Positions 3,761-41,358 of a stretch of DNA of 64,000 nt are shown here, in pieces. The stretch comes from Quercus robur (taxonomy: Eukaryota; Streptophyta; Magnoliopsida; Fagales; Fagaceae). The DNA lies in the NCBI RefSeq assembly GCF_932294415.1, contig NC_065536.1, forward strand, positions 40,322,354 to 40,386,353, read 5' to 3'. The first letter of the stretch is position 1; each line of letters begins with the position of its first letter. Both the position numbers and the translations under genes were made by a program. Below the pieces are notes generated by a model. That model had not been told where the DNA came from, did no database searches, and was given only the letters and a program-made list of their open reading frames with translations.

Positions 3761-3802
3761 TACACTTGTTGGTGTGATCCTTGACCCCTTGTGTTATTTG
3801 TC

Positions 3803-7844: not shown

Positions 7845-7857
7845 CAATGGGGGAGAT
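7845..7857 (+). other. Element B polypurine tract
   Basis: CAATGGGGGAGAT sits directly against the TGTAAGG start of the 3' LTR, as expected for a plus-strand primer. Confidence 0.85.
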
Positions 7858-8959: not shown

Positions 8960-9014
8960 CTCTCATATCAAAACTACTCCCCTTTTTTGTCACGGATGAC
9001 AAAGGGCAAGTAAC

Positions 9015-10355
9015 TCAAGCAGTCATCACGTTGCCACCGAAAGAACTAGCATCCTCATCCTCATCATCATCATCGTCGTCGAAGTCACCATCATCATCAT
9101 CATCCTCGTCCTCAGATACCTCTGGAGAAGAAGAGGAAGACTCTACAAAGCCACCAAGGCAAGCCTGTTGTCGGGCAATACAACCAATATAGGTGTTCAC
9201 TTGACACAACTCATCACTAAGTGTGTCAAGGCGAGCATCCATGCGCTGAAACTACGCCATGACCACCTCGAGGGTCACACCATCCGCCAATGAAGAAGGA
9301 GTGGATGTAGATGGAGCGAAAGAAGTCGAAGGAGTTACTGTCTCAATCCGTGGCCACTTCGATCGAAGTTAGGCCTCGCTTCGTCTAACGGTAGCTATGC
9401 TGAAGCTGCGCCATGACCACCTCGAGGGTCACACCACCCACTGATGAAGAAGGAGTGGATGTAGAGCGGAAGAAGCCGAAAGAGTCATCGTCTCAATCCG
9501 TGACTGCTTCAATCGAAGCTAGGCCTCGCTCCTTCTAATGGTAGCAATGTCTATGGCATACATAGCAAAAAAGTGTGTAGAGTTAAGATAGGAGATAGAA
9601 AAATGGCAAAGAATTCACGTGATAGCCGAAAGGAAAATGAGCTTATCACGGGTCGCCATATCTCTATAGACATCTATAAGGGAGAGAATGAAGTGAGAGG
9701 GAAAATCTATAGTAAGTCCCTCAAGTATGGATAACAAAAATCGAGCACGTGGCTCAGTAATGGAGTTATAGTGAGACAAAGAATGAAGAATGAATGTCAT
9801 CACCATGTTAAGAAACCTCAGACTTTTTGCAAAGCCCAAGCAAAGGGTGTTTTGACAATCACCCCAAAATGAATGTGTCTTATAGAAGCGAGACGAGAGT
9901 TCATCTTTGGACACAATCCTAAGGCGCTCACAACCGAGGTAGTCAGTAAACTCTACCCTCGGTATGTGTAGCACCTCAGATATAAGATTCGTAAAGACTA
10001 CAATGCGTGTACCTTAGACGTGAGTGATAAACTAAGGTATATAATAGTCAAATCCGTGCATGTTGGAGTAAAACTCCTATATGATCATGGAAGGATAGGT
10101 AACCAAGATGCCATACAGTGACTCCTAACCCCTATTGTAGATGATACTGGGAAGGTCAGTATCGGAAAAGTTCGATAGAACGACTTAGCGTTTCAAATGA
10201 ATGCTGCATTGTGAAAAGTTCTCTGAAAAGTCCTTACGGGCTTTATCATCACAGAACCAAACGTGGGATGGAGTAAGATCAGCAGAAGGAGAAGAAGAAG
10301 ATGCCCCAAAACAAAGAGAGTTTCGGGATGGAGTGGATTTCTGTTTAGATGCCAT
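9015..10355 (-). pseudogene. Element A accessory ORF (PF20167-like plant transposon protein), broken
   Basis: The minus-strand frame opens MASKQKSTPSRNSL at 10355. It continues through several stops and shifts to a well-conserved middle part (9974-9615) containing FLNMVMTFILHSLSHYNS and FLLSILEGLTIDFPSHF, then an acidic Asp/Glu-rich tail (9242-9015, SEDEDDDDDGDFDDDDDDE). I recognise this as the family annotated as putative plant transposon protein domain, which occurs in gag-only elements; its biochemical function is unknown. Neighbours: it lies 3' of its own TATA box and leader intron and upstream of the LTR in element orientation. The copy cannot make a full protein. Confidence 0.7.
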
Positions 10356-10362
10356 AGAGCAA

Positions 10363-10368
10363 CTAACG

Positions 10369-10411
<43 letters not shown>

Positions 10412-11170
10412 CGTAGAAAAGAACCAAAACAGTTTAATATCAATATGATAGAAACAAAATTGGTACGTATGCATGAAAAATGAATGAACATATGACATGC
10501 AAAAGTAAAAACATCATGGGCTTAGCCCAATCCAAACCTACCAACACACATCATTTCAACATAGTAATCACACATCTAAAATGCATGAATCATTGATAAA
10601 ATGCAAATGTGATGCAATGCATGATCATTTAAAATCATTTAAACAAAAAACCTATCCCAAAAACTTCACAAAAACCTCGACAATTTTGAAAAACCCCAAA
10701 AGTTAGGTCAAAAGGATGAGAAAGGAGATCATACTAGAGGAAGAAATCACCTTTGAGGCCGAAGATTAAGTGAGGAAGATGTTTTGAGTGAGAGAAGGGA
10801 GTTTGGAGAGGTGAGGAGTCAGAAAGTGTCGAGAGAGATTGGTGAGAAATGAAGAAAAATCGCGTTGACTTTATATATAGACAAATACGCAGCTCGATGG
10901 ATTGGTAGGTATCGAGAAGTGTCAAGGATTAAAAATAGCTAGATGGAGTTATCGAGAGGTGTCCACAACAATTTGACCTCAATGGATCGAGAAGCTATCG
11001 AGAATCTATCGAGCATATAAAAACTTCCTCGATGGATCGAGAAGTTGTCAAGCAGCTATCGAGACTAATTTTCAAAAACCTCAATGGATCGAAATTGTGA
11101 TAACAGCTATCGAGAAAAGAAGCACAAGAGGCTCAATAGATAGCCTAGCTGTTGAGAGGTGTCGAGATTG
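10363..11170 (-). promoter_or_regulatory. Element A internal promoter: motif array, TATA, leader intron
   Basis: In element orientation, about a dozen TATCGAG, ATCGAGAAG or TCGATGGATCGAG motifs (11170 down to 10885) are followed by a strong TATA box (CTATATATAAAG, 10880-10869). Then comes a C/T-rich leader ending CCTCAAAG|GTGATTTC (donor at 10750) and an intron of about 390 bases. The acceptor is TTTCGTTAG (10363-10364), just before the accessory ORF start at 10355. The TCGAG/CTATCGAG motif type matches the cluster in this element's own LTR, not those of Elements B and C. Confidence 0.6.
10375..10407. repeat. (AG)n microsatellite
   Basis: About 16 AG units. They lie in the polypyrimidine part of the presumed leader-intron 3' end of the accessory ORF, read CTCTCT on the minus strand. 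Confidence 0.95.
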
Positions 11171-11306
11171 CTTAAAACAGTTTTTCAAAGAAGAGAAAAA
11201 CACAAACATGAATGCAATCAAACATTCTACTTAACCAAAGATCCAAACAACCTTTTAAGCTCTCAAAAACATCTTTCAACAAGAAAAATGTCAAGCATTT
11301 AGATCC

Positions 11307-11309
<3 letters not shown>

Positions 11310-11349
<40 letters not shown>
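11310..11349. repeat. (CA)n microsatellite
   Basis: About 19 CA units in the noncoding interior of Element A. Confidence 0.95.
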
Positions 11350-12264
11350 CAAGTCTAACCAATTTTGTATTTCAAAAACAAATCAAGACAGTTTAGTGAG
11401 CATACATTAACACATGTATTCCTTGTGATGGTCAAATCACATTGTACCTGCACATGTATCAAGAGTAGCAAAGAATATTGTGTGTTGTGTGTGAAAATAT
11501 CGCAAGATTGCATAAGTGTCTTCATGGTATGACGATTTGAGATATGAGAAAATCACTTTACTCACACACAATCATAACTGCTTAATGGAGACTATCACCT
11601 TTGAGGTACATCCTATAACTCCTACATCTCCTAGAAGACAAGCTTGTAAAGCATTTTGATTCTTTTTGCTTTTATTTTTCTTTGATATTTTCTTTTAAAC
11701 AAACCATGCATGGGCATATAGGAGAGAGAAAAGAAATACCCAATGATGTTAAGTATTTAACATTGCACTTTTACTATGCCAAAACATATAGATGTCATTT
11801 CATGATTGACGGGCAATAATGGTGAGATGGTTATTTATACCTTTCTCTTAGGATTTTCTAGTCCTTCACATCATAAAGAGTGATACGAGTGTTAAGTACA
11901 AGAGATTGCTTAATCTTACTCATCACAAACATGAGCCACAAAACTCACTTGCTTAGTTGATCATAGAGATGCTCATCTAAGCTACAAAAGATACAAAGTT
12001 TAGAAAACTTTGTTTCAACGGCCATCCAAGGTACACAATTACCAATGTACACAAAATACACACTGTTTTTGTATTTGTCTGATTTTTCAAATTTTTTTTT
12101 ATTTTTATGAAAAGCAAAATAGAACAAAATTGAAAATAAACAAACAAAAACATGTTAAACAAAACAAAGCATAAAACTAGACTAACTTAAAACAAAAAGG
12201 CAAAACACACAAGTAATGCATACTCAAACACAAGAAGGGGAGAGAGAGAGAGAAAAAAAAGTGA

Positions 12265-14170
12265 CTAAATCACTTGGATCATTTTTCCTTCCACACCTTG
12301 GAAGAACATTTCCATTTGGTAAACCCTTAATCCAGCGCCGGGGGGAGAATTGAAACCGTTCAAGTTCGAAAGGAACATGAGGGCTTTAAATAGATCTCCA
12401 AGAGAAGCAAAAGAGGATAGAAACTGATTCTGATTTCTCGATGAGATCATATTATTGCTCTGTTGAGTGGCTAACCACTTATAGCAATTTGGTCGAGTAT
12501 GTCTAGCTGCTCCACAGCGATGACAGAGATGTTACTTCTTCTGTTTAGATTTTTGAGTATTTCCCTTCTTAGCCCTAGGGTTTTTAGTCTCTTTCTTATC
12601 AAGCTTAGGGGGGTGCTCCTAAGATAGATTTACCCTTGTCTATGTTCTCACTAGCTAAAACAATTTTCACATCATTGTTCTTAGATTCTACATTATTAGC
12701 AGGTGAAACAAAAACAGTAGTACTAGTAGAAGCAATACTAGGAGAAGAGAAATCATATCCTAAACCGGTTCGATCAAAAGCAGATTTCTCAAGGTTGAGC
12801 ATCTTGTCAAGCTTTGCACTTGAAGTTCTTTCCAACTAAGCTCTGACTTGGAACAGCTTTGCCTCAAGCTTCTTGATCTTCTCAACCAAGAAATTATTTT
12901 CAAACCGCAATGCTCCAATGGTTTGATTAGCTTCATCAAACTTTGTGGAGATTTCTTCTCGTTTAAGCTCCACATCACTGAGCTTCTTGGTGGCCAACCT
13001 ATACAACTTCTCACACTTTTTCGAGACCTTGTATAATTTTGCATAGATTGTATGGATGTCATCTTGTTCATCCATCTTCTCAAATTTAGACTCCACCAAG
13101 TCCTTTTATTCATCCATATCTTCAACAATCCCCTCAGTAGGATTTATAGTGGTAGTGAAGGTATTACGGATTCCATCATCCTCATTATCAGAATCATCTT
13201 TAGGCTCGGTGTCGCTTAAAGTAGCAGCAAGTTTCTTGCTCTTCCCAATGGTCTTGAGATACGTAGGGCACTCTTGTTTCAGGTGACCGAAACCCTGACA
13301 CCCAAAGCACTTTGGTCCTAAGGGAATAGTGTACTGACCGCTATTCTTAGCATCCTTCTTTCCTTTGTCTTGGTTCTTGAACTGAGACGAACTGGACTAC
13401 TTGTAGTCTTTGTCAAATCCTTTAGCATTGGCATTCTTTATAAACTTTTTGAATTGCCTAGTGATATAGGATTTCATCTTAGAATCTTCATCATCTAAAG
13501 ACTCATCAGTGTCACTGCTCTTAATCTTCAATGCCATACTCTTGCCCTTACTAGAATTCCCAATCCTTGTCAAACCCAACTCATAGGTTTGCAGATTGCC
13601 AACCAGCTCTGTCAAAGGAATTTTGTCAATATCTTTTGATTCCTCAATCGCAGTGATCTTGGCATGAAATCTCTCCGGTAGAGATCTGAGCACCTTTCTA
13701 ACAATCTTGGGTTCGAGAATGGTTTCCCCAAAATTAAAGGCTAAGTTCACTATATCCTTGAGCTTGGCATAGAACCCATCCAATGACTCATCCTCCTCCA
13801 TCTTAATCTCTTCAAAGCTTGTGGTAAGCCTCTGAAGCTTTAAATCCTTGACAACCTTGGTTCCTTCATAGGTTGTCTACAGGATGGTCCATGCTTTTTT
13901 TGCAGTTTCAGTGGAAGATATCTTCTTGAACTCCTCATTCGTGACTGTACTGAATAAGGCATTCAATGCCTTGCTATTGAAATTAGCCGCTTTGATCTTT
14001 GCATTATCCTAATCAACCAGCGCTTCCTTAGGCTTGGTCCAGCTTATCTCCACAACCTGCCACACTTTTTCATCTAATGATTGCAAGAAAACTCTCATGC
14101 ATACTTTCCAGTATGCAAAGTTAGTGTCATAAAATAAATGAGGTATAATTAAAGATTGTCCTCTATCCAT
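12265..14170 (-). pseudogene. Element A gag (UBN2, two zinc knuckles, coiled coil), broken
   Basis: The start MDRGQSLI (14170) matches MDRSQSF of Element C. Domains in order: a UBN2-type copia gag domain (NFAYWKVCMRVFL; AWTILxTTYEGTK; SLPERFHAKITAIEESKD), a CCHC knuckle CFGCQGFGHLKQEC near 13270-13320, a long charged coiled coil (13099-12605), and a second knuckle CHRCGAARHTRPNC near 12500-12530. In-frame stops lie at 14009-14011, about 13876 and 13397; further breaks follow. No protease or integrase frame follows, and the next recognisable coding sequence is the accessory ORF. Known family role: capsid and RNA binding of virus-like particles. Confidence 0.85.
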
Positions 14171-14224
14171 GACAATAGGGGTCAATAAATCACACAGCAA
14201 AAATTAACCCTAATCAGAGTATGC

Positions 14225-14240
14225 CTACTCTGATACTACT
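14225..14240 (-). other. Element A primer-binding site
   Basis: On the minus strand AGTAGTATCAGAGTAG directly follows the 5' LTR. It is close to the initiator-Met tRNA complement TGGTATCAGAGC. Confidence 0.75.
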
Positions 14241-15244
14241 TGATAGGCCAAGAATGTATTGACATCTTATGATAAATTAACCAATTAATTAGTCAACTGA
14301 ATTAATTAATTTAATTAACATGCAATATGCATGGTAGCACAAACAAATTATTAATTAAGTTAATATGCAGGAATAAAGTTGACACGGTGATTTTTTTACA
14401 AATGGGAAAAACATCCAAGGCAAAAACCCCACCCCATGATTCTAAGGCCACCACTCTTGAGAATCTACTATTATCACAACAAACGGTTACAAGTAAAGAA
14501 ATCCTAGTACCTTATACCAACCTACAGTTAAACCCTTACCCCAATACTCAATCGAACTTGTTCTGTAGTAACAATCTCTCCTTTTCAATGCACGGCTCCC
14601 AGTACGTGACTAACCAATTGATGCATAGATTCAAGTACATGACTAACCACCAACTTGAGAAGGATGTTGGCTGCAAAGTCCTTCAGTTCATGAACACAAT
14701 GAAGATCACGAAACTCCTTGGTTATAAAATCTTATGGTGTACAAATGCAACAGTTTCTTGAAGAGAAAGATGAACTAGGGCAAATTGGCTCCAGTCACAA
14801 TATGCTTGTGAATAACCTTTGCATCAAGTTGCACTCACTTGCATCATCTGTGACGGCCCTTAAAATAATCATTATATATGTTTAGGGTTATGAGAAAAGA
14901 AAGCCTAAACATGCATACACAAATTGGAGTGAAATCAAATCTGAAAATCTGATTTTCTTAAATCTCGATAGATAGGGTATCTATTGATCAGTTGTCGAGC
15001 ATCGGGCAAAAACTGCCTTTTAAACCTCAATAGATGCTATCTGTCGAGCTTTAAAATTCAACACTTCTTCACTTGATTCTTGGACAGATTTGCATGACTT
15101 TAACACTTGGACTTGAAACCTTATTCCTTGAAATACTAAACACATCCTAGATCTACCAAATTACAAGTAAAGTGCGTTTTGTCAAAGGATTAGTCAATTC
15201 TACATTGACATATGTTTCTAACATGATTCACATATGTCCTAACA
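14241..15244 (-). repeat. Element A 5' LTR
   Basis: A 1,004-bp partner of 1130-2129 with TG...CA ends. The motif cluster (about 14955-15055) and a TATATATG TATA candidate (near 14875) are in the same order as in the other LTR. The outer flank is TATAG, against TATAA at the other end. Confidence 0.9.
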
Positions 15245-20323: not shown

Positions 20324-21395
20324 TGTAAAATTGTAATTTACAACTATATGTTTTGTTGGCTTTAATTCCGTGTCAAATTTGATTGTAATTATGTTCAATC
20401 TTTTGTACCCTGTATTTAATGTGGGATTTAATTGTAAGGGTTATGTGTGAGAGAGAGAGAATGTGAAGACTCAAGCAAATTGAAGACTGAAGAGTTTTCG
20501 CGAGTAGCTCATGACTAAGCATCCCGCGAAATGATGCATGTGCCCTGCACATGACTGGAATGCGAAGAGTCAGAACAGGATGGAAACAACTGTGTTTCAC
20601 GAGTAGCTCACGGGTAAGGCCTTCCCGCGAGACACTCGCGAAACATTCTGTTTTGTCAGATTGTCCTATCTGATACACACTTTTTGTACCCACACTATAT
20701 ATACCCACATTACCCACAGATGTTGAGGAGTGCTTCTAAGAGAAAACCCTAGCCACAAACCTTGAGAGTTAGAAATTGTTATACCCACATTTTTCTACAC
20801 AATTGCTAGTGGATTTTCCTCAACTCCTATCTCTCCATTTCCATACCATTGAAAGATTGATAGCCCAAACACTTACCACACCCTTTCAGAGTGTCAAGTG
20901 AGGTTTTGGTACTGCTGGAAAGTATTGGAAGAAGCTAGGCTTTGGCGGATGCAATCAGGTGTATTGCGAGATCCGGAGAGCTAGACAAGACATGGTTTTG
21001 AGAAGCCTTGTTGGAGTAGGAGCTTGGAAGGCTTAGGTACATCGAGTAGATTAGGCTTGGAGGGTCTCTTGCTAACCCATGTATCCCAACTGATTGTTTA
21101 GTGGATCGATTACCACTTGGAGGGCAGCGGAAAGGTTTTTCGTCGAGTTCTTCGATTTCCTCTTCGATAACATATCGACGTGTTATCTTGTGTTTGCATT
21201 CTTCTTCCCTATTCTTTTACCTTTCATTTTATTGCTGTGTTATAATGATTATGAGTTAGAGTAGCTTGTTTGTTTATCTGCTCGCATTTACTCTATTCCG
21301 CACTTAGTATTAAGTTAGAGTAAAATCAATCGAGCCGTAACTTTAATTTGGGGGTCTAAATAGCTATTGTGTTTTCACACATTTTCAAGGATTCA
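20324..21395 (+). repeat. Element C 5' LTR
   Basis: A 1,072-bp LTR. The motif cluster at about 20497-20645 contains TTTTCGCGAGTAGCTC, ATCCCGCGAAATG, CTTCCCGCGAGACACTCG and decayed forms. TATA (CTATATATA, 20694-20702) follows about 50 bases later. The long transcribed part is shared with the 3' LTR. Confidence 0.92.
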
Positions 21396-21412
21396 ATTGG
21401 TATCAGATCAGA
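21396..21412 (+). other. Element C primer-binding site
   Basis: ATTGGTATCAGATCAGA directly follows the LTR. Ten bases match the initiator-Met tRNA complement TGGTATCAGAGC. Confidence 0.85.
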
Positions 21413-21461
21413 TACACTCGCTGTGGTTTAATTACTTGAGTGTGATCCTTGACCTTTTGTG

Positions 21462-23382
21462 ATGGACCGGTCACAATCTTTCAATGCTCCACCAGTCTTT
21501 GATGGGGGCAATTATGCCTTTTGGAAGGTCCATATGAGGGCTTTCTTGTGTGCTATAAATGAGTTCGTATGGAATTCTGTTGAGAATGGGTATGTTAAAC
21601 CCACAACAGCTAAGTGCGAATGGGACAAGGCAGTTCTTTCATTAGCTAATGCGAATAGTAAGGCCATTAATGCTATATTATGTGGTGTCCCCTGATGAGT
21701 TTCACAAGACATTGCATGTGGAGACAACCAAGGAAGCTTGGACGATTCTTGAGACTACCTATGAAGGTACCAAGAAAGTCAAGGACACGAAGCTCCAAAT
21801 GCTTACCACCAGATTTGAAGAGCTTAAGATGGGTGATGATGAAGCTTTCAATTCATTCTATGGAAAGCTCAATGAAATTGTAATTGCTAAGCTCAATCTC
21901 GAAGAGAATAATGAGGATTCTAAGGTGGTGAGAAAGATTTTGAGGTCTTTACGAGAGGGCTTCCGAGCAAAAGTTACAATTATAAAAGAGAGTAAAGACT
22001 TGGATAAGATCAAAATCCAAGAGCTAATTGGATCTCTCCAAACATATGAGTTGAGACTGTCTTCTCATAAATCGAGCAAATCTCTTGCTCTTAAAACCAT
22101 CACCGAAAGAATGGACGACTCCTCTGAAGAGGATGATGTGGAGAAGGAAGTAGCATTCCTTGTAAAGAACTTCCGAAAATTTCTGAAGATGAAAAACAAT
22201 GGGAAGCCTTTCAACAAAGGAAAGTTTACATCCTCTAAGGGTGATAGGAAGGAGTTTAAGAAGATGGGAAGGAGTTTCAATCCCCTCAAGGAATTGTGTG
22301 TTACGAATGCAATGGCCATGGGCATCTCAAGAAGGAGTGTCCTAACTACCTAAGAGGAAAGGGTAAAGTGTTTGCCACTACCCTTAGTGATTCTGACAGC
22401 TCAAGTTCAGACACTGAAGGAGAATGTGACAGTGAAGGGAATTATAGGGCTTTTATGGCTATTGCCTCAGTTGATTCAAAAGATGATTTGAGCAATTTGG
22501 TTGATGAACTTGGTAATATTTTTGAGGATGAGAAAATTGAAGAATCCGAAGATGAAGACGTATGCCAAATGAAGGGGAGAACAACTTTTAAGAAGCCTAT
22601 GATTCTCTGCTGGAAGATTGTGGCAAATACGCCAAAGTTGCTAACCTTGCTGTGAAAAAGATGAAAAATGTTGAAAAAGAGCATAAGGGTATACTTGTGC
22701 AACTTAAGGAATCAAAGTGTATAGAAGAAAGACTCAAAGGAGTGTTGGTTGCATCTTACTCTAAGATCAAGTTTCTTAAACTTGAAATTATTCAAGCAAA
22801 TGTCAAGGTTGAGCGCATCTCCACCAAAAAATTTGACAATGTGCTATTTTCTCAAAATCTTCACATGATAAGACCAGTTTGTGTTATACTGGAGAAGGAA
22901 GTTCGAGCAGCGAACCCAAGAAGGAAGTGAAGTTCGTTTCAACCAAAAATGTTAAGAAACTTAAAGAAGTGAAGCCTGAGATTGAGACCCCTGCTGTAGT
23001 AAAGAGAAACATTGGTGCAAAACCAAAGGAAAAATGGAAGTCATTACCCAAAAATCAAATGGGACCTCAAGTAAAACACTTGTGTCATCATTGTAGAGTA
23101 CAAAGACACACAAGGTCGAATTGTTTCAAGCTTCATGCACTTAAGAGGGCTGATTCTATGCGTGGCCAAGAAAATTCAAGGAGAAGACCAAGGGAAGCAC
23201 AAGCTAAGGAAGATAGTGAAGGACATCTCATTGGAGACGTGATGGAAATGCTGAAAAACATATCATTGTGCCTTACTAGCTTTACTTTGAGGTTTGAAAG
23301 TTATGTTGGTCGTATCCCGCCATCTAAGGCTCTCACCCAAAATACTCGTAAAGAGTGGGTGAAGAAGGGTTCTTATGCATGA
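21462..23382 (+). pseudogene. Element C gag (UBN2, two zinc knuckles, coiled coil), frameshifted
   Basis: It starts MDRSQSFNAPPVFDGGNYAF (ATG 21462). The UBN2 gag domain runs to about 22100 across a frameshift near 21690: FWKVHMRAFL in one frame, AWTILETTYEGTK and SLQTYELRL in the next. After another shift near 22290 comes a CCHC knuckle (CYECNGHGHLKKEC), an acidic Ser/Asp/Glu stretch, a Lys-rich coiled coil (from 22652), and a second knuckle CHHCRVQRHTRSNC near 23080-23125. The ORF ends NTRKEWVKKGSYA-stop at 23382. Full copia polyproteins continue from such a basic motif into protease and integrase; here nothing follows. At least three shifts make this copy non-coding as a whole. Confidence 0.87.
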
Positions 23383-23599
23383 TCACCCTCTATGCCCATG
23401 CATTAATACTTCCGATGTTTAGGGTCATAGGTTCATGCATCATGACATGCATAATTCATTGTGTGTCAATTGCTTTCGGTTTTTAGCATGTTTCTTTTAC
23501 AAGTTTTTGTTTTGTTCTTGTTTTTGTTGATCTTACTTTACTTGTTCTATTTTTGAGTGTGTTCAAAAATTCAAAAACCCATAAAAATTGAAAATTCTT

Positions 23600-24390
23600 C
23601 AAAAAGTTTAATTGCTTGTGTTATGTATATCACATGTGAGTTTGGCCTAGTACTTTCGTACTAATGACGTAGTGTATTTACGAGCTTAACTTGTTATGTA
23701 TGGACATATATCTTTGTGGGAGAAATCTTGAAAACTATGTGTGACTGTTGTAAATAGATCTTCAAGCTTGTCATGAATGATTGGTCAATAGCCTTGATGG
23801 TCTTGATACTTGCATAGACTTGTACCTATATATCTTTCTACTTTTATTTTTTATGTTTTTGCAATAGAGCTCACCAAATGTAAATCTCAAAATGCAAAAG
23901 AGATTATGAGCTACTAGTATTGACTAGGAAAAAAGGGAAAGCGACTTTTGTATTGAAATGTATGGTGCTCAAAAAGCCAAAGGCTAACTCTCAATGTTGA
24001 AATATAAAAAATTTCAAGCACTGATCTCAAAAAGGAGATGTATTATCTAAAGAGGATCAAATGTTATGATTTATACAAAAGCCAAATGAAAAGCTTCTAA
24101 GTTTTGTAATCATTCTCTTGTGAGAGGTCATATATGTTTATTTTCATAATTGAGATAGACCTTTTGAATTAGTAACAGTTGTGTATGACTTTATTGAATT
24201 GATCATTGAAGTTTCACCCTAGTTTAAGGACTATTCCACATTTGGTACTCACCCACAACACACAAGACTTTGATTCAATTAATGCTTATCTCATTTGTGT
24301 GATTATACATGTTCAAATGTGATGTGTATGCTCAATTATTTGTTGATCAAACCCAAAAAGATTTTTGAGTGTTTTATATGTTTTTGAAAG
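23600..24390 (+). other. Conserved noncoding block of Element C
   Basis: It aligns with 5040-5840 of Element B almost without large gaps, while having no shared open frame. It includes GTGAGTTTGGCCTAGTAC at 23636 and GGTCAATAG near 23783. The block lies between gag and the internal promoter in both elements. Confidence 0.6.
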
Positions 24391-24461
24391 TGATTTTATA
24401 ATTTCGTGCTTTTTAGTTTTTGTTCAAAATGCTTTTTGTTTTTTTCTTCAAAAACTAATTC

Positions 24462-25595
24462 AGAGGCAGTTTCACGAGAAGCTCGCGACTTAGAGCTTCC
24501 CGCAAAACCAACTTAAGGGAAATAATTTTTTTCTTTAGTTTTATACAAAGAGTCTTGCTACTGTCTTGTGGGTATTTCGCTACTAAACCTTTCTCGCGAA
24601 ATGCTTTTTAGGAAAAAACTGGAAATTTTTCAATTTCATACAGAGGCTATCGCGACTGTCTCACGACTATTTCGCGACTAATAGCTTCTCGCAAAAGCTT
24701 TTGTGCTTCTTGAGACTAATCTCGTGACTGTCTAACCTGCGAAAAATGCGTGTTTTCGGTTTTATATAGCAAATGTGACAGTTTTTCAAACTCACTTCAT
24801 TTCCCTCGCACTACATCTCTTGAACCCCTCTCAACCCAAAATCATTTTTCACTCAAACCCCTTCACTCTCAAGCTTGTTTTCTGCATTTTCATCTTCAAG
24901 GTATGTTTTCTAAAACATTTTCTTCTCTTTTGTCTTAGTTTATGTAGAAATTAAGTTAGGGTTTCCAAAATTGGGGATTTTTTCAAAAATGGGTTGGGAT
25001 TTATGTTTTTGTGAAAAAATTTTCAAAATTTTCGATTGGGCTGAGTCCCATTTGATCTTTGTGCATCTATGTTGGCCCTTTGTGGCAATCTAAACATGTA
25101 TTGAGGCAGATTTCATCATGTTTATGCATTGTTCATTTGTGTTGTTCACTGTTGCATGCTATGTGTTTAACAGAATGTTCATATGACATTCTTGTGTTGA
25201 ATTGAACTCAACTGAGCTCCATTCCTTGGGCATACCCTTGATTAAATTTGGGTAACATGTTTTAGTCAAAGGGTGTGTTTTACACATTTTTCCCTTTTTG
25301 TGCCATGCCATGCACCTCCTAGGCACACAATAGGCACTCTCTAAGCACACCCCATGCATCACCTACTGCACACATATGCACAACACATACACACACATGC
25401 ACAGTTGCTATTTTCTTGCATTTTGCCATTGTTTACATGTCTTAGCACTCATTACATGTTACTTTTAAGTTTGTTGTGTTATGTTTTAAGTGTTTTTACT
25501 TCTGTTTTGGACTAATTTGAATCTAATCAAGTTTTATGTTCTGTTTTGTGTTTGTGCACCTGTTTCTTTTCTTGGTTATCTGTGTAAATGTGCAG
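24462..25595 (+). promoter_or_regulatory. Element C internal promoter: motif array, TATA, leader intron
   Basis: About eleven motif copies (TCGCGACT, TCTCGCGAAA, CTTCCCGC and CpG-decayed versions) fill 24465-24750. A TATA box TTTATATAGC (24761-24770) follows, then a C/T-rich leader with ACTACATCTCTTGAACCCC, and a near-perfect donor TTCAAG|GTATGT at 24901. The intron of about 695 bases ends TGTAAATGTGCAG at 25595, and the accessory ORF ATG is the next base. This reads as a complete plant promoter plus 5'-leader intron inside a retrotransposon. The motif set matches the Element C LTR, which also has it directly upstream of TATA. Promoter activity is inferred. Confidence 0.65.
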
Positions 25596-26519
25596 ATGTC
25601 TCCTACCAAACATTCTGCGACCAAGAAGTCATCAAAACGTGCTTGCACAGATTCTGACAACTTCAAGTCTATTGAGGCAGATTTAAAGTATAATGACTGC
25701 TGCAAAAGAGCAACAATTATCATGGAAAGGGTCGTGAAATTGGATACCCTTGAGGACACCTTCATACTTGAAGTGTTCAAGGAAAGGACAAAGACAAAGC
25801 TCCTGAATCTAGCTGGAGTTGTATACTCGGAGATCATAAAGGAATTTTTCTCCAATGCAAGTGTAGAAGAAGATCATATAGATTGCTGGGTGAGACACAA
25901 AGAGTTTGTGATTACAAGGGAAAGCATACAAGAATTTTTGGAGATTCGTCCCCCCTCACAGCCAATCACAGTCCAATGTGAGGATCGCTTGGACCCTACT
26001 GAGGAAATGGTGTTAACTCTTGGTGGTACATTTAAGAAGACCTCCATGAACACAATTCCATTCAATCCGGAGATGAGGACTCTTGCTCATGTGATGATCC
26101 ACAACTTATATTCGGTTACCAACCTCACGACATTGTCCGCTCCAATGACAATTTTTTTGTACGATCTCTTTACTCGCAAGGAGATTGATATATGTGGACA
26201 CATCTTCCATCTGTTGAAGAAGAGCATAGAGAAGCAGAACTCCAGAACAATCATGCCATTCCCCTCACTCATAATGGGCCTCATTGCAAAGTCAAGGCTC
26301 AAACTTTCGAGTGGTCTTACTGTGGTTCAAAGAGACTATCCCATTGGTGCACATATAGTTACTCAAAGCATAGCCCACATCAAAGGCTCCAGAACTGGCG
26401 TGTCTTTAATACCACGGGATAGTGTTGAGGAGGGGGGTGGCGATACAGAGGATGAGATTGATAAATTCACTTCTGCACCAGAGACTTCAGCTCAGCCATC
26501 TTCTTCAACACCAGCATGA
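25596..26519 (+). CDS. Element C accessory ORF (PF20167-like plant transposon protein)
   Basis: An uninterrupted 307-residue frame from MSPTKHSATKKSSKRA (ATG 25596) to a TGA at 26517. A Lys/Ser-rich N-terminus suggests nuclear or nucleic-acid binding (inference). The middle carries the family pattern, including LEIRPPSQPI, FNPEMRTLAHVMIHNLYSV, TIFLYDLFTRKEIDICGHIF and a Pro-Phe-Pro-Ser-Leu-Ile block. The C-terminus is Ser/Pro/Thr-rich and acidic (EEGGGDTEDEIDKF). In-frame sequence extends 5' of this ATG through the intron acceptor, so I prefer the ATG right after AG 25595. It corresponds to the broken minus-strand ORF of Element A. Function is unknown; candidate roles are binding the element's own motif arrays or aiding mobilisation. 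Confidence 0.75.
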   Translation: MSPTKHSATKKSSKRACTDSDNFKSIEADLKYNDCCKRATIIMERVVKLDTLEDTFILEVFKERTKTKLLNLAGVVYSEIIKEFFSNASVEEDHIDCWVRHKEFVITRESIQEFLEIRPPSQPITVQCEDRLDPTEEMVLTLGGTFKKTSMNTIPFNPEMRTLAHVMIHNLYSVTNLTTLSAPMTIFLYDLFTRKEIDICGHIFHLLKKSIEKQNSRTIMPFPSLIMGLIAKSRLKLSSGLTVVQRDYPIGAHIVTQSIAHIKGSRTGVSLIPRDSVEEGGGDTEDEIDKFTSAPETSAQPSSSTPA

Positions 26520-27414
26520 GGACCAGACAGACTTGATCGCCTCCTAGCTAAAGTGGACCTGATGTTTACCATGCTTGACTCCCATGTGTAGCACACTGCA
26601 GACCAGTTTGCATTCAGGGTCAGATCATGGCATTATCTTCTCAGATCGAGGACTTATCCGTAAACCATGGTATAGATTCAGAGTCCGACCAATTCTAACC
26701 TCTTTGGCCATTTCTGGTCAAAAAATGGGAGAAAATTTTGAGGGGGAGCTTGTACAGTTAAGGGGGAGCATAGCTTAGGCTTAAAAACAATTGGTTCATA
26801 CAGGCGGTTTAGCATTATTTATTTTAACTTTTATAATTGTTTGTTTAGATCTCTTTATTGCTTTCTTTTAAAACTTTAGTATTCTGTTTTTAATTTCGGT
26901 TTATATTCAGTAGTTGTGTTTATCTCAATGCTTTGTAGCATTTTTTAGTACTTTTAGATGTTGATTATATATCTTTAGTACCTCTCACTTGTACCCTAGT
27001 AGGATCTTGTATCTTAGATGCAAATACTTCGTGTATTTTGTATTGGTTTTGTGTTGGACATGCAATTGATCCTTGTGAGTGATCTTAATTGCATTGCATG
27101 TTCGAATGAGCATTTACTAGTTAAATGTTCATTGTAGTCATTTTTTAATGATTGTTCTTGTATGATCAAGATATGCTTACATGTTTTATAGTGTTTACAA
27201 ACTTGATCGCACTTTACTTGCTCATGTATGTACCATGTCTTTAACTTGTCATAAGCTTAATGAAAGTTTTGTTTGTGTGCAAGTGTTTCAAGTTACAGGT
27301 ATATAAGTGCAAGTGCTTCACAGCTTCTAAATTAGGTGTGAGTGAGTTTTGCCACTGTTCACAAACTTACGTTTAAGTCTAGAGTCTATTTTAGGGTTTT
27401 GTCATGGAATAGCC
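26520..27414 (+). other. Element C 3' noncoding interior
   Basis: It contains GGGGGAGC purine strings (26743-26776) and no supported frame. The last ~90 bases (from CACAGCTTCTAAATTAGG) match the end of Element B (7748-7857). Confidence 0.5.
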
Positions 27415-27426
27415 AAAGGGGGAGAC
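27415..27426 (+). other. Element C polypurine tract
   Basis: AAAGGGGGAGAC directly precedes the 3' LTR start. Confidence 0.85.
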
Positions 27427-28482
27427 TGTAAAGTTGTAATTTACAACTATATGTTTTGTTGGCTTTTATTCTGTGCCAAATTTGATTGTAATTATGTTCA
27501 ATCTTTTGTACTTTGTATTTAATGTGAGATTTAATTGTAAGGGTTGTATGTGAGAGAGAGAAAATGTGAAGACTTAAGCAAATTAAAGACTGAAGAGTTT
27601 TCGCGGGTAACTCGCGACTAAGCATCCCGTGAAATGATGCATATGCCCTATACATGACTGGATTGAGAAAAGTCAAGATAGGATGGAGACAGCTGTGTTT
27701 CGTGAGTAGCTCGCAAGTAAGGTCTTCCCGTGAGACACTAGCGAAACATTCTATTTTGCCAGATTGTCCTATCTGATACACACTTTCTGTACCCACATTA
27801 TATATACTCACATTACCCACAGATGTTGAGGAGTACTTCAGAGAGAAAACCCTAGCCACAAACCTTAAGAGTTAGAGATTGTTATACCCACATTTCTCTA
27901 CACAATTGCTTGGGGATTTTCCTCAACTCCTACCTCTCCATTTTCATACCATTGAGAGGTTGATAACTCAAACACTTACCACACCCTTTAAGAGTGTCAA
28001 GGAGGTTTTGGTGCTACTAGGAAGCATTGGAATAACGGCTTTGGAGAATGCAATCGGGCGTATTGCAGGATCTGGAGAGCTAGACAAGGCATGTTTCCGA
28101 GAAGTCTTGTTGGAGTAGGAGCTTAGAGGGCTTAGGTATATCGGGTAGATTAGACTTGGAGGATTTCTTGCTGACCCATGTATCCCAACTGATTGTCTAG
28201 TAGATCGATTACCACTTGGAATGTGGCGGATAGGTTCTTCGCTGAGTTCTTCGATAACACATCAGCATGTTATCTTGTGTTTACATTCTTCTTCCCTACT
28301 CTTTTACCTTTCATTTTACTGCTGTGTTATAATGATTATGGGTTAGAGCAGCTTGTTTGTTTATCCGCTCACATTTATTCTATTCCACACTTAGTATTAA
28401 GTTAGAGTAAAATCAATCGAGTCGTAACTTTAATTTGGGGGTCTAAATAGCTCTTGTGTTTTCACATATTTTCAAGCATTCA
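27427..28482 (+). repeat. Element C 3' LTR
   Basis: Partner of 20324-21395, with differences concentrated at CpG sites of the motif cluster (27598-27750), for example CCCGTGAAATG where the 5' LTR has CCCGCGAAATG. It ends AAGCATTCA, followed by the CACTT duplication. Confidence 0.92.
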
Positions 28483-29476
28483 CACTTGTTAGGAACATAT
28501 GTCACTATTTTATGTAATTGACTAATCTTTTGACAAAACGCACTTTACTTGTAATTGGGTAGATCTAAGATGTGTTTAATACTTCAAGAAACCTTGTTTC
28601 AAGTTCAAGTGTTAAAGTTATGCAAGTCTGTTCAAAATTCAAGTGTGAAAAGTGTTGTTTATTAAAACTCGACAGTTAGCTCAACAACTAGCATCTATCG
28701 AGTTTTGAAGAGCTATTGAAGCCCGTGGCTCGACAATAACTCGATAGATAGGTATCTGTCGAGATTTATGAAAAAAAGAGTTTCAAGTCTATTTTGACTC
28801 CAATCCGTGATTGTATGTTTGAGTTTTTCTTTTTCTCACAACCCTAGACATATATAAATCTTATTTTAGAGGCCGTCACACAAGAGAATACAAGGAGAAC
28901 GAATGCAAAAGGTGACCGATGCCTTATTCTCTCTGAAAGAAGTTACTGCATTTTTGCGCCATAGGGTTTTATAACCAAGTGCTTCTTGATCTTCGTTGTT
29001 AATGAAGTGAAGAACTTTGCAGCCAACATCTTCTTCAAGTTGGTAAGTTAGTCATGTACTAGGAACCATGCATCATTGGTTAGTCACGTACTAAGATTCG
29101 AGCAAAAATGGTGGTGTTTATATATTGAAGAATTCAGAAGTTCTGAAGCGGTAGAAGGTTTTTGCTGTAAGTTCATCTACAAGGATTGTAGAGTCTAAGG
29201 ACAAAGGTTTCGTACTCGATCTGAAACTTCTCTTTACCATAGTGGATTGTTTTTGGGGAAGGTTTCCCCCTAGGTTTTTTACTGTGAAACTTATTTGTTT
29301 TATTGGTTTTCATGGGTTATCACATCTTGTCTTATTTATTTTTCCGCTACATGATTTTAACATGATATTGATGTTTATTTGTTATAACAAATTTTATTAA
29401 TAATAAATTTAATAAACAACTTGGATTTAAAACTTGTTAATTCTATCAACCGGAGTCTAAATTTTCCAATACTTTC

Positions 29477-29694
29477 ATGTGCATCCAAAAGAAATGTAAT
29501 TGAGTGGATTGTGCTCTTTTCCTTCTTACCATTGTAAACTTTGATTTATAGTTCAATAATATTTCTGGGGTTTAATTCAAAAAGAAAAATTATAGGATTA
29601 TAATCGTTTTTGTTTGGTAAAAACTTTGAACTATTATTATAATTGATTAGTTTTTAAATTTTTTTTTTATTTTATTTTTTCTATCTACTAGAAG
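29477..29694. other. AT-rich host DNA
   Basis: No feature was seen apart from T-rich runs near 29660-29685. Confidence 0.5.
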
Positions 29695-34991: not shown

Positions 34992-37900
34992 TCAAGTTCT
35001 CTGGTTGGCCACCAACATTTGATACTCATGCATGAGAGACCTTGCATTACGTAAAATAGCCGTTGGGTGAGCTTGGCTATCCTCAAAACAGAACTTGTTC
35101 CTAGCGTTCCATATAGCCCAAGTTATCATCGCCCACTCTGTCAACTCATCCCGAGTCAGCCGCTGCAGCATGCTACGAGTCAACAGGAAAAAATCAGGGA
35201 CCACAGTTGAGCTCTTCTGTATTTTGCCTTTCACCAATGCCCAGACATTGCAAGCAAATGGGCATTCCCAAAGGATGTGCACACCTGTTTCGGCTTGCTG
35301 GTTACACACGCTGCATGTCGAAGCTACGTGCACTCTCTTCATGTGAAGGTTGTCACGGGTAGGTAGTATGTTAGAGCAATCCCGCCACAGGAACGTACGC
35401 ACTTTTGGAGGAGCATTGAGGGACCACACTGCCTTCCACAGTTTTCCATCAGCTATAGCATTTGAGTGGTCACCAAATGAGGGGTGTAGCACACGCAGAG
35501 CCACCAGGTACGCCGATTTAACAGAGAATACATTGGCTTTATTCTCCTTCCAAACTAGTGTATCGTTCGCCTGCATGTTTGGCATGGGTATGCTTAAGAT
35601 ATCAGCGCAAGTATGGGGCTCAAACCAGTATGCCAACTTAGCTCTGTCCCACTGACCCGTTTCCAAGTCCACCAACTCCCTTACTTTCATCGGCCCTGGT
35701 CCATCCCTGTAAAGGCACGGGGGTCTTGGTAGCCATTGGTGACCAAAAATATTTATTAGGGCTCCACTTCCCACCTTCCATATAGACCCTGCCAAAATGA
35801 TATCCCTAGCTTTCAGCAAACTTCTCCACACATACGACGGATTACTTCCTAGTTCAGCTTCCACAAAGGAGACACTAGGGAAATACCGAGCCTTATACAC
35901 TCTGAAGAACAGGGAGTTTTGGTGGTTGAGCAACCTCCACGCCTGTTTCACCAACATTGCCAGGTTGAAGGCATGAATATCTCGAAAGCCCATACCTCCA
36001 GTTTTCTTTGGATCACACAGTCGCTTCCAATTAATCCAGTGTATTTTCTTCTCGTTACTCGTCTATCCCCACCAGTACCTTGCCATGATTGAGTTAATAT
36101 CATTACAGAGAGCTTTCGGCAGTTGGAACAAACTCATCGAATATGTCGGAATCACCTGTGCTACAGTTTTAAGCAAGACCTCTCTCCCTGCTTTCGAAAT
36201 AAACTTTTCTTTCCATCCCGTGACTCGCTTAGCTATCCTTTCCCGGAGGTCTTTAAAGGTGCTCACTTTGTTTTTACCCCCCACCATCGGCAACCCCAGG
36301 TACTTCTCAAATTCTGTCACGACCTGGGCATCAAACATGGCTCGAATATCCTCCCTCAATCCTGGCTCGGTATTAGGGCTGAAGAATAGAGCCGTTTTTT
36401 GCCGATTGATCGCCTGTCCTGAGGCTTGCTCATATGCCGCCAGTATGTTTAGAAGGCGAGTACACTCGATTGGGGTGGCTGGGCAAAATAATAGGCTATC
36501 GTCAGCGAAAAGAAGGTGAGAAACATTTACCCCATTGCGGCAAGATTTGATCCCCTGAAGCTGCTGAGTCTCTATAGCTTTCCGAAGTAAGGCGGAAAGG
36601 CCCTCCACACAGAATAGGAATAGGTAAGGTGACAGAGGGTCGCCCTGTTTTAATCCCCTGGTCGGAGAGATGAATCCTCGTGGTTCGCCATTGATCAACA
36701 CCGTATAGCTTGCTGATGACACACATTGCATAGTTAGGCCCACCCACCTGGCTGAAAAACCCATTTTCAACATGATCTTCCTTAAAAACTCCCACTCCAC
36801 GCGATCATAAGCTTTACTAATATCCAGTTTAACCGCCATATGCCCCACCCTTCCTTTTCTTCTGTTTCTCAGTCTGTGAAGCATCTCATAAGCCACCGCC
36901 GTATTGTCAGTGATGAGCCTGTCTGGGACAAAAGCGCTCTGAGCATCTGAGATGATGTACGGTAGGATGCATTTTACTCTATTTGCCAATACTTTGGATA
37001 CCACCCTACTAACCACATTACTCAGGCTAATAGGGCGATAGTCCGACATAGATTGGGGGTCCTTTTTCTTTGGTATGAGTAAAATATGGGTGAAGTTCAT
37101 CTTGGTTAAAATATGGCCTGAGTTTAAGACAGAAAGAACTGCCTCTGTGACATCCCCTCCAACCACATGCCAATATTTCTGAAAGAAAAAAGGCGACATG
37201 CCGTCTGGTCCCGGCGACTTCGACGGGTGCATTTGGAACAGGGCTAGCCGAACCTCTTCACCCACAAACGGTCTGAGAAGGGATTGGTTCATCTCTTCCG
37301 TCACTACCCCGTCTACCACGTCCAGAACCCTATTGACATTACTTGGGTTTGACGTAGCAAAGATATTTTTGAAATACTCCTCAGCTATCTCACCCACGTT
37401 CTGCTCACCCGTCCTCCAAACCCCTTCTCTATCCATCAACCCCTCTATCTGGTTTTTTCTTCGGCGTTGGCTGGCCCGTTTATGGAAAAAAATTTGTGTT
37501 CTTGTCGCCTGCAGGGAGCCATATTGCTCTAGAACGCTGTCTCCAAAACACTTCTTCCTGGTGTAGCAAAGTATTTATTTCCTCCCGCAGTCTGTTAATT
37601 TGTGCCAGGTTGTTTCCGTATCCGGTGTTGGCTATAGCCGTGAGTGCATCTTGTTTTTCCTCAATTCGAATTCTAGCATTGCCAAACACCACTCGGCTCC
37701 ATGCCACCAGTTTCATTCTGCAACGCTTAATCTTCTCGAAGAGCTTGAACATAGGGCTTCCATTGGGTGGTTGGTAGCTCCATGCATCCCTGATCACCTC
37801 CTCACATCCCTCGTGTGCCACCCAACGTTCCTCAAAACGATGGAGGCGCTTACGCCTGGTCTGTCCCTGTTGAGCAAAGCATTGAGTATTTAGCATCAGT

Positions 37901-38577
37901 GGGTCATGATTAGAGTAAGATACCTGCAGGTGAGCTACTTTTGCCGATGGGAACACGCTCCGCCACTCCGACGATGCGCATGCTCGATCCAATCTTACTT
38001 CTACAAAGGCCTTACCGGGTCTACCATTACGCCAAGTGAAAGGGTACCCATGGTACCCTAGGTCTTCCAGCCCACAGTGCAACAAGGTTTCTTTGAAAGC
38101 CAACATAGGCGCTAAGGGTTTTGGGGTACCTCCGTTCTTCTCAAAAGAGTGAAGTATTTCGTTGAAGTCACCTATGCAAACCCATGGCAAGGAAGCCCTT
38201 GCATGAAGGTGTCTAAGGATTCTCCATGATTCATGCTTTCGGTGTCCTTCTGGTCGCCCATAGAAGCCCGTTATCCTCCAAGGTGGTTTATCGGTAGACC
38301 TGATGTGTGCATCGATATGGTTTGGAGAGAACGTCTGAATATGAAGGTCACACTCAGCCTTCCAAAATAAGCCCAAACCTCCATTTTGGCCATCACTCGG
38401 AACAGCCATGACTGCTTGAAAATTCAGGTCATAACAGAGTTTACGCATTTCCGTGATAGACCGTTTTGTTTCCATAAGGAACAAAACGGTGGGTTCTTTA
38501 CTTCTCACCATATTAGTGAGTACATCCACTACACGTTGGTTCCCAAGCCCCCGGCAGTTCCAGCTTATAATAATCAT
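34992..38577 (-). pseudogene. L1 ORF2: endonuclease and reverse transcriptase
   Basis: The start ATG 38577 overlaps the ORF1 stop as ATGA. Order: AP-type endonuclease (IISWNCRGLGNQ; METKRS; GFYGRPE; CIGDFNEIL; RLDRACAS; SNHDPLML), then reverse transcriptase (SKSPGPDGMSPFFFQ; LIPKKKDP; DYRPISLSNV; KLDISKAYDRVEW; GLKQGDPLSPYLF; LLFADDSLLF), then a zinc-binding zf-RVT region (HVASTCSVCNQQAETGVHIL, WECPF). One extra A in an A7 run (37486-37492, plus strand) shifts the frame after DKNTNFF. A TAG at 36063-36065 follows ARYWWG. The ORF ends at 34992 with no RNase H domain, unlike the L1 fragment at 30092. About 1,195 codons in all. Confidence 0.92.
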
Positions 38578-40118
38578 TGCGTTCGGCGGGGCTGCTTCGC
38601 AACCTCCACCATTGGTGAGGTTGGATAGGGAGAGCCCACATCCAATCTGGTTTTCTTTTCTTTTCCATGAGTTGCATCGTTGATCTCCACTCCACTCTTG
38701 GCCCACTCTCTCTTGAGGCCCACCTTCATTAGCGTCTCTCTTTCATGTTCCATGACATCCCGATACGGTCCTCGTGCAAGTCTAGTCCACGTTGTTTGCT
38801 TTGTTTGAGAGTGTGGCTTAGTAACCACGTGACTTGCATGTTCACTAATAATACTCCCCTCCACGTGAGTTGCATGGTTCTTTAAGAATTGTGGCTTAGT
38901 ACCCACGTGACCTGCATGTTCACAACTCATGCTCCCTTCCACACCATGCATGTCCGTTGATGCTTCGGTAATGGGTAATGGGTCAGTGTGGTGCTCAGAC
39001 ACTTGACGTGTAGCGGGAGGTTTCATACATAACTGTGGAATGGTAGGGACAGGCTCCGGGATCGTGGACGTAGACTTGGTAGGAACCTCATATTTTTTGG
39101 TTACCATATTCTCCATACGATCTTGTTTTGCTGTCAGGTTCACCTTTCCAAGTGGGTACACAGGTTCCGAAGTCGGTGATGTGACCTGTGGGTACACAGG
39201 TTCCAAAGTTGGCGATGTGACCTGTGATGTAACCGTAGCTGAGACTACGGCTGAGCCCCGAGATTGTGCTGGCTGCCTAGTTGGTGTAGGTTCACTTGCT
39301 GAGTCATCCCGTCGGTGTGGTGGACTATTCGTCTTGTTATTAGCGGGGTCCCCACGACGTCTTGCACCGGCCTTCATCCACTCACCATACGGGTTGGGTT
39401 GTTGTTCCGGGTTGGGGTCATGCAAGGTGCAGTTTTTCTTCTCATGGCCCAAGTGACCACATGCGTAACAAAGGCCCACCAATCTTTCGTATTTGAATGC
39501 CACCACAAATCTATCACCTTCTGGGTTAGTGACCGGACTTCCTCGCCGGAGCGGTTGGTTGAGGGGAATGCTAATACGAATGCGTAGGAACCTTGCTTGA
39601 TCAGACTCAAACGGCTTGCTATCCACCATAAGCACGGTCCCAAGTTTTGACCCGATGTCCCTAGCAGTTTCTTCTGTCATGAGATCGAAGGGTAAACCCC
39701 AGACTTGGACCCATAGTGGGACATGCGTGAAAACAATGTTGTGCGCCGCCATACCGATTTCCCATCTCCACGTCACCAGAAGGTGATTATCGAAACTCCA
39801 AGGGCCGCTATCCTACACCCACTGGAGTTGGCTTTCAAGTTTAAAGCGGAATAGGTATAATCCCTCACCCACATCAACAATCCGGAGATCGTTACCGAGT
39901 TTCCATGCGGAGTGCAGCAGGTTCTTCGCCGCCCTATGGTTGACGTCTCTCGTCGTAAGAAAGCGACCAACAAGGCTGAGAGAGCAGTCGTCCAGTGTCT
40001 GTGTTCTGCGGCTGGGATTCAGAGCAATCGCCTTGCCCTCTGTCTCAGTGAGTGAGATACTTTGGAGTCTCTCGATGACCTCGGAATCCATGGGAAAAAT
40101 GGTTACAGGGGTATACAA
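38574..40118 (-). pseudogene. L1 ORF1: DUF4283-like and CCHC nucleic-acid binding protein
   Basis: The likely start is MDSEVIERLQ (ATG 40091); an upstream in-frame ATG is at 40118. The N-terminal DUF4283-like region includes WSFDNHLL and VWGLPFDLMTEE. A CCHC knuckle CYACGHLGHEKKNC lies near 39470. The Pro/Ser/Thr-rich C-terminal half has two internal duplications: VTSPTLEPVYP with VTSPTSEPVYP, and HVEGSIISEHASHV with an earlier, similar VEGSMSCEHAGHV. One TAG (39813-39815, just before DSGPWSF) interrupts the frame. The ORF ends PRRTQ-stop, its TGA overlapping the ORF2 ATG by one base pair of codons (ATGA). Role: chaperone and RNA binding for L1 RNPs. Confidence 0.88.
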
Positions 40119-40566
40119 AGAGGGAGTGGGGGGTAGTGTGAAGAGGGAAGGTGAGAAACGTATCCTTGTCCGTTAGCTCCTCACTTGAAGACGTGCCAGG
40201 GAGAGATATGGCTGAAGAAAAAACTGTAACCCACCCTCTGGGGTCTACGTATTTTAGTGTTTGTTTTGTTTTTTTTTTGTTTTTTTTTTTTTTTAGTCAA
40301 ATAGTTGGACCCACCACCGATTCACTTCGGTCAAGGCTGTCCGGGTCCACTCCTGTAGCAGTTTATGAGCAAGGTTGAAGATGAACTGAGTGGGTGGTGG
40401 GATGGGTTTGCTAGGGTTGGATAAAAATAAGGGTGGTGAGGTCCACTGCCGACGACCAGCGCCTCAGTGGAAAGAAAGAAACTCGCCCCTGGCGAGAGGA
40501 AAAGCTCCTACGAGAGCGAGGAGAAAAATTATAGACTGATATGAATGCACTGAACCTTGAATGTTG

Positions 40567-40722
40567 AATGTTAGCAACTTTGGGGTACTCTTACTTATTA
40601 TTAGTCTTATATTCTATATTCTATATTCTATATTTATATAGTCTGCCATCAATCCCAATAATTCATACCGAGTGACGATAGTGATGACAACTGATTAAAA
40701 CAGTGAAAAATATTGTGAAAAT
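40567..40722 (-). promoter_or_regulatory. Displaced AKR core promoter (copy 1 of a tandem pair)
   Basis: Read on the minus strand toward the gene, CTATATAAATATAG (about 40630-40643) is a good TATA box about 85 bases before the L1 target site. The L1 target site itself continues into the AKR leader and ATG at 34708. Removing the L1 would put TATA about 115 bases from the ATG. The same ~175-bp unit recurs at 51216-51356. Gene-promoter assignment is inference from position and motif. Confidence 0.55.
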
Positions 40723-40793
40723 AGGTAAAAATAGCCAAATATCATGTTTTGGCAAAACTTGTGCTTAACTAGCATTGTTTTGGAAATATTTAG

Positions 40794-41358
40794 TGTTGGA
40801 TTGTGTGGCCAAATAGCCCACAATATAAATGTTGAATTGCGTGGTTAAATAACCCACAATGTGTATGTGTGTAATTCTCAAAAGAAATTACCTTTCACAG
40901 TATTGTACATGAGATGATTATTATTAATAAAATTGTTTGAATAATGGAATTGCATGTTTTGGCCATGATTGGCTATGTGGGGTTTGACATGGTCAAATAT
41001 GCAGTTGAGATTTCTTAGGGATATTGAGTTGTGAATAGGAGCAATGAGATGGATAAGACATCTGATTTTAACGTTTAAATAAACATTAGAGACTTGAACG
41101 TTCATGTCCTAATTTGTAGGAATTGAAATGAATTTTGGCAACTTTTGTGAGTCTTTAAATATCCCACTTTAGATCTCTAGATAAGATAACCACACAAAAA
41201 TCTTGTAGAGTAAAAAAACCCACTGCAACCCAAATACTATTTGACTCTTATCTCTTCCATTTGAATATATGTTTAAGATATCTACTCTCTTAGTGTCTTA
41301 GTACGTTTCAGATATAAGTGTTTTAGTTGAATAAGAGTTCTATTTCAATTTTGCTTCA
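40794..41358 (+). repeat. Copia 5' LTR
   Basis: A 565-bp LTR with TG...CA ends that aligns throughout with 49759-50343. The transcribed part contains the CTTAGTGTCTTAGTACG stretch common to both. Confidence 0.95.

Follow-up and report, generated by a model that had tools for sequence, protein, structure and literature searches.

CG-containing words shared between LTR and internal arrays of oak LTR retrotransposons with a PF20167 accessory gene, a candidate VANC-like system

Sequence-specific anti-silencing has so far been described for the VANDAL DNA transposons of Arabidopsis, which encode VANC proteins and carry dense non-coding arrays of short family-specific words; from family to family, the words change along with the proteins (PMC5735166, PMC10398659; statements on published systems here and below follow the accessible parts of the cited accounts). 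In foamy viruses, a long terminal repeat (LTR) promoter and an internal promoter are both driven by the element-encoded protein Tas (PMC4929722, PMC8670036). Accessory genes were also reported in plant LTR retrotransposons: gene23 of maize Grande, with its own promoter and a nuclear product (PMC7264820), the TRP28 genes of Retand, with predicted DNA binding and tandem repeats (PMC11963269), and a sense Transposase_32 (PF20167) open reading frame (ORF) of sunflower Athila, predicted to be nuclear (PMC11728184). The last was the only paper naming PF20167 by accession in the literature searched. When a 64,000-nt stretch of Quercus robur DNA was analyzed (contig NC_065536.1, positions 40,322,354 to 40,386,353; hereafter the window, whose numbering is used throughout), an LTR retrotransposon at 20324-28482 (element C) was found to carry TCGCGA-type words in its LTR and in a second array inside the element, ahead of an accessory gene with a PF20167 domain. 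Among the papers listed in the literature searches (several lists being capped, and subscription papers and preprints outside their scope), none described a plant retrotransposon with LTR and internal arrays sharing words.

The LTR array of element C (20497-20645, plus strand; TCGCGA-type cores at 20498, 20524, 20597, 20625 and 20636) lies 5' of the LTR TATA box (TATATATA, 20696-20703, plus strand), and the internal array (24462-24760, plus strand; nine TCGCGA-type cores, several of them 11 bp apart) lies 5' of a TATA-like box (TATATAG, 24763-24769, plus strand). A first-pass annotation of the window had placed both arrays upstream of TATA boxes. This arrangement was recovered, and only the positions given for the boxes (20694 and 24761) were off, by 2 bases each. 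Exact TCGCGA hexamers number 13 in the window, every one of them inside an array of element C or of its relative, element A. The C internal array contains 9 matches (at most one mismatch) in 299 bases, compared with 0.31 per 300 bases expected from window composition and a window average of 0.50. No TCGCGA-type match was found in the copia LTRs (about 40500-41100 and about 49500-50060), and the copia interior and a gypsy region contained 0.4 per kb. The internal array had also been described as a non-identical array of the LTR motifs, and 7-mer sharing agrees with this: for the two C LTRs, only 0 and 1 of 300 dinucleotide shuffles reached the observed value. The LTRs of element A were matched by the C internal array as well.

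The internal box is followed by a C/T-rich leader (24790-24900, its start site predicted from the sequence), a GT-AG intron (24901-25595; GT at 24901, AG at 25594-25595) and, from the very next base, the ATG of the accessory ORF (25596-26519), all on the plus strand and with the leader and intron where the first pass had put them. The ORF encodes 307 amino acids and matches PF20167 with 69.9 bits (cut-off 45). It is open, whereas the gag of the same copy is split between frames. The 21 C-type copies compared, of which C is one, all carry the donor AAG/GTAYG, and 19 of them have an AG immediately before the start-codon position. In class III (see below for the classes), the donor GCCG/GTAAG was found in three of four elements and in element L036, and all five have an AG a few bases upstream of the ATG. 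In class II, a TATA-like box was present in the three fetched copies (3/3), and the donor was read by eye in element B alone. From this anatomy we infer the start site and the splicing of the internal gene. Given the conserved anatomy in the copies and three families with different words, the unit may well be a separate host-style gene linked to the LTR by its motifs, as had been proposed.

A total of 37 elements were compared: 20 C-type stretches, 8 from further groups of PF20167, three of B type, three of a third type, and the window's own elements A, B and C. The fetched copies were drawn from 129 scored of 4658 first-look candidates (C protein), 150 of 6384 (PF20167) and 126 of 7137 (B-type protein), in overlapping sets, and were selected for the best protein match, a choice biased towards intact genes. 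Internal and LTR-side regions were cut by one set of rules throughout, save in elements A and B of the window, whose regions were set by hand. The repeated word differs by family, being TCGCGA, CTCGATAG or CGACCGATCGAA, and the third word class has TTTTCGACCGATCGAAA internally and CTCGACCGATCGAAG or GGCTCGATCGATCGAA in the LTR. When CG-containing 7-mers were compared between internal arrays and LTR sides, sharing was block-diagonal across classes I/Ib, II and III. The internal-LTR pair of the same element exceeded a z of 3 in 28 of the 33 elements in these classes and in 29 of 37 overall. The observation made on element C is confirmed and holds more widely. The score of L019 in this comparison is inflated by an LTR piece.

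When classes were assigned from the LTR sides of other elements, every internal array of classes I/Ib, II and III went to its own class (33/33). Classes I and Ib were merged in this test and in the fixed-window test, and L017, L027, L028, L029, L030, L035 and L036 were excluded as LTR references and kept as internal arrays. L027 does carry a C-type LTR, and with all rows the outcome was unchanged (25/25, 4/4, and 5/5 including L036). The internal arrays of the two class IV elements find their matches in LTRs of class III (mean z 6.9), and those LTRs contain AATCGAGTT. The L029 internal array matches no class. L036 has words in common with the side downstream of it (z 5.9), yet no LTR was seen there. 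A C-type U3 (unique 3' region) is present downstream in 16 of the 20 fetched C-type stretches (not in L010, L017, L018 and L028), and L010 and L018 pass a z of 3 despite this.

The word classes follow the clades of the accessory protein in a tree of 33 rows, for which the program gave a long-branch warning and from which L012, L014 and L017 (ORF pieces shorter than 300 amino acids) and element A (no protein) were left out. In addition, the internal unit AGCTCGCGACTTAGAGC has 45 exact matches in the genome against 0 for a reversed control. For at least 20 of the 45 sites, a scored start of PF20167 lies on the same strand, 1.0-2.2 kb further downstream, most candidates being unscored; these 20 were picked by eye from the candidate lists, two with an assumed query start. 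One element, L033, joins C-type LTR and internal arrays to an L034-type accessory protein, a natural exchange of the accessory gene. Modules are thus exchanged between elements, and this sole case seen stayed inside the TCGCGA group.

Class I cores 11 bp apart, that is one helical turn, are far commoner than in random placements, both in the LTR and internally. L017, L027 and L028 were excluded from the LTR counts, and with all 23 rows 17 of 42 LTR pairs are at 11 bp. Class III has spacings of 4, 17 and 21 in both places (small numbers, no null), and class II has no clear spacing common to both. The CpG observed/expected ratio in class I/Ib arrays was 1.28 compared with 0.31 around them, in 24 of 24 elements (fixed window, A left out); an earlier measure, which took the densest window and so favours high CpG, agrees with this repeat. 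Among single-mismatch cores of the internal class I arrays, CpG transitions make up 83 of 116, though they are only 4 of the 18 possible variants, and among LTR cores 13 of 38 (14 of 40 with all rows). The excess in internal cores points to methylation and subsequent decay of inserted copies.

Ten copies were compared with element C along their length. A non-coding block 5' of the internal array (23627-24405, plus strand) is 88-93 % identical to C, one copy being covered over just 41 %, and the array itself 76-88 %; nonetheless its words persist. In all ten copies the ORF is less similar to C than this block, the 3' untranslated part and the U3 of the 3' LTR. Third positions of the ORF are 56-78 % identical to C in three copies with equal alignment, and gag similarity is patchy, some parts being near 70 %. 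The accessory module therefore looks older, or faster evolving, than much of the element backbone. Separately, the identity of the block between gag and the internal array also exceeds that of the neighbouring intron.

The closest named homologues of the C protein are from Quercus suber (83 % identity) and, further down, Lithocarpus (74 %). All 41 members of alignment A3 match PF20167 at E-values up to 10, and 523 and 3433 relatives were found among clustered proteins for two members (E up to 0.001; the sets may overlap). A scan of viral contigs gave 10 pattern matches and no relative of the accessory protein. The ORF is under purifying selection: the median ratio of nonsynonymous to synonymous rates (dN/dS) is 0.15 for the C-type protein and 0.30-0.47 in seven pairs of other classes, one further pair being saturated. 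The AlphaFold model of the C protein itself was not used (predicted local distance difference test, pLDDT, 40). The model of a relative, the L034 protein (92 sequences), reached a pLDDT of 80.7. When it was compared with 350,542 PDB chains, the first match was VANC21 bound to its DNA, with moderate score and template modelling (TM) value. Among the matches listed VANC21 was the sole one over the PF20167 region, the remaining ones covering essentially the C-terminal coil. Because VANC had been proposed before the structure search, a first rank by chance is less plausible. Given the moderate score, we regard a common fold of the PF20167 protein and VANC21 as likely and no more than that.

On these grounds we lean, without strong conviction, towards a VANC-like DNA-binding protein, encoded by the element, which would recognise the arrays at the two promoters and thereby activate or de-silence its own family. 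The PF20167 protein would be a sequence-specific binder of the CG-containing word of its family, a word that recurs in front of both the LTR promoter and the putative promoter of the accessory gene itself. Bound at the internal array, the protein would sustain accessory expression; bound at the LTR, it would activate or de-silence the genomic transcript of copies with that word. Most economically, the whole would form a feed-forward switch, with anti-silencing as in VANC and a promoter layout as in foamy virus Tas. Binding by the accessory protein, activation as opposed to repression, and an effect on methylation are the parts of this model that we infer. The VANDAL analogy drawn in the first pass is moderately and independently supported, by VANC21 as the best fold match and by words that change in step with the protein clade, as reported for VANC (PMC5735166); element C itself is not a VANDAL. 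Two results count against this proposal. Conservation of the internal gene anatomy is poorest at its TATA box: of the 21 C-type copies, just 6 have TATATAG, 7 have the weaker TATGTAG and 8 have neither of the two, and our confidence was slightly reduced because of this. In addition, the structure search of the PDB with the L034 model gave no match at an E-value of 0.001.

A broader version is more doubtful, and we put it forward tentatively: PF20167 proteins might form a VANC-like superfamily in which each family has a private CG word on each promoter, word and protein change together, and the CG perhaps makes the reader methylation-sensitive, so that the silencing mark would be the input of the switch. 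If sequence-specific anti-silencing held for LTR retrotransposons, the large PF20167 family would gain a testable role, and the retention of an intact additional gene by elements lacking pol would find an explanation. Three words, each with its proteins, in one genome offer a ready-made swap comparison.

The arrays precede TATA-like boxes in both places, as they would if one or more host transcription factors read them and the accessory protein did something else. E2F-like strings do occur in class I sequence; TTTCGCGGG resembles the E2F consensus, and an E2F-like reader of TCGCGA arrays is conceivable. However, the word varies between families within one genome and yet is equal at the LTR and the internal promoter, and it follows the accessory-protein clade, so that every family would call for a host factor of its own. 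The best fold match of the modelled accessory protein is, moreover, a DNA-binding protein of transposon origin. We consider host readers improbable, though they are the main rival of our reading, and a single host factor such as E2F as the sole reader was rejected since the word differs by family.

The same anatomy would also suit negative autoregulation, in which the accessory protein binds both arrays and represses, limiting copy number or toxicity, and purifying selection suits either sign. Likeness to VANC, which removes silencing (PMC5735166), speaks for activation, and first-look candidates numbering 4658, 6384 and 7137 (overlapping and mostly unscored) suit a successful activator better; we therefore find an autorepressor hard to credit. 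Equally weak in our estimate is a neutral origin, by which an LTR piece seeded the internal promoter, or recombination or template switching homogenised the arrays, with no functional reader. Ordered units of about 34 bp can indeed be aligned between LTR and internal array, and recombination of the elements is clear from L019, L033 and the nesting of A in B. On the other side, internal-LTR matches (E < 0.01) fall in the arrays in the five elements other than L019 that have them (one L038 match starts about 25 bases outside), CpG is high in the arrays, the core spacing of class I is kept, and the words persist although the array diverges more than the neighbouring block in the ten copies described above. 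LTR duplication as the full origin of the internal promoter was not favoured, as strong similarity sits in the arrays.

Element C is a complete insertion. Its 5' LTR (20324-21395) and 3' LTR (27427-28482; array cores at 27601, 27612, 27700, 27711 and 27739), both on the plus strand, have TG...CA ends, and CACTT on both sides is a 5-bp target duplication. The LTRs share a mean column identity of 94 % and only about 88 % identical columns (two-row alignment), so this copy is old. With these ends, the duplication and a copia-type gag (21462-22353, plus strand; PF14223, 3.6e-15; split over reading frames), it is a copia-type LTR element. tblastn with copia pol from the same window gave nothing in element C at E-values up to 1, the scanned sense ORFs gave copia gag and PF20167 and no pol family, and the single antisense ORF (161 amino acids) was assigned no family in the profile scan. 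The integrase, reverse transcriptase and other pol domains of an autonomous copia element were thus not found in these searches. TR-GAG elements are non-autonomous elements with LTRs and gag and without pol; element C resembles them and adds the accessory gene and paired arrays.

Its differences from the other systems are as follows. VANDALs are DNA transposons, unlike this gag-bearing LTR element with its 5-bp duplication. The oak words contain CG, and the VANC words YAGTATTAY and AGTTGTCC do not. Profile and single-sequence searches of PDB chains with the accessory protein listed neither VANC21 nor anything relevant. Foamy virus Tas belongs to an animal retrovirus and is a different protein, which makes that comparison a functional one. 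Grande and Retand are gypsy elements with antisense accessory genes (domain PF04195 in Retand), whereas element C has a copia-type gag and a PF20167 gene in sense orientation to it. No words shared with the LTR are described in the accessible accounts of Grande and Retand (PMC7264820, PMC11963269), and that of sunflower Athila (PMC11728184) mentions no shared arrays or internal promoter.

Element A is a diverged relative of C (81 % identity in an 892-bp alignment) that keeps the C-type splice donor and its own paired arrays: an LTR array at 2822-2982, with a copy in the 3' LTR at 8018-8191, and an internal array at 5924-6053 (both arrays on the plus strand; LTRs from 2662 and 7858). No accessory ORF or PF20167 remnant was found in it, and it is related to the L034 family (LTR 79 % identical) but lacks PF20167. 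Element A (2662-8950) is apparently nested in element B (1130-15240), which lies on the minus strand, is interrupted by A and has paired arrays with a different word, CTCGATAG. The internal array of B (10883-11182; CTCGATAG/CTCGAC) is upstream of TATATATA near 10879, its LTR array region with the CTCGATAG word is at 14876-15175 (other LTR, 1765-2064), and its broken accessory gene (9018-10355, all minus strand) contains stops and scores 43.8 bits for PF20167, just below the cut-off of 45.

Several minor observations were also made. Directly 3' of the 3' LTR of element C lies a B-type LTR with CTCGATAG words (28487-29480; 74 % identity, 646 columns). A minus-strand ORF at 36066-37574, within a run of minus-strand ORFs (34992-39812), has an RVT_1 domain of a non-LTR-like reverse transcriptase. 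L025 has a second PF20167-like stretch (480-1217, oriented coordinates; 34 % identity to C) upstream of its own copy. The class IV members L044, L030 and L043 (C4, about 1.421-1.434 Mb) represent a young element carrying a PF20167 gene, and a 4.7-kb class IV query gave 29 further genome matches of 97-99 % over most or all of its length (32 of 740 candidates scored). In the single class IV copy that was read further out, a B3 DNA-binding gene was found, and tandem arrays with AACTCGAT words precede both its PF20167 and its B3 genes.
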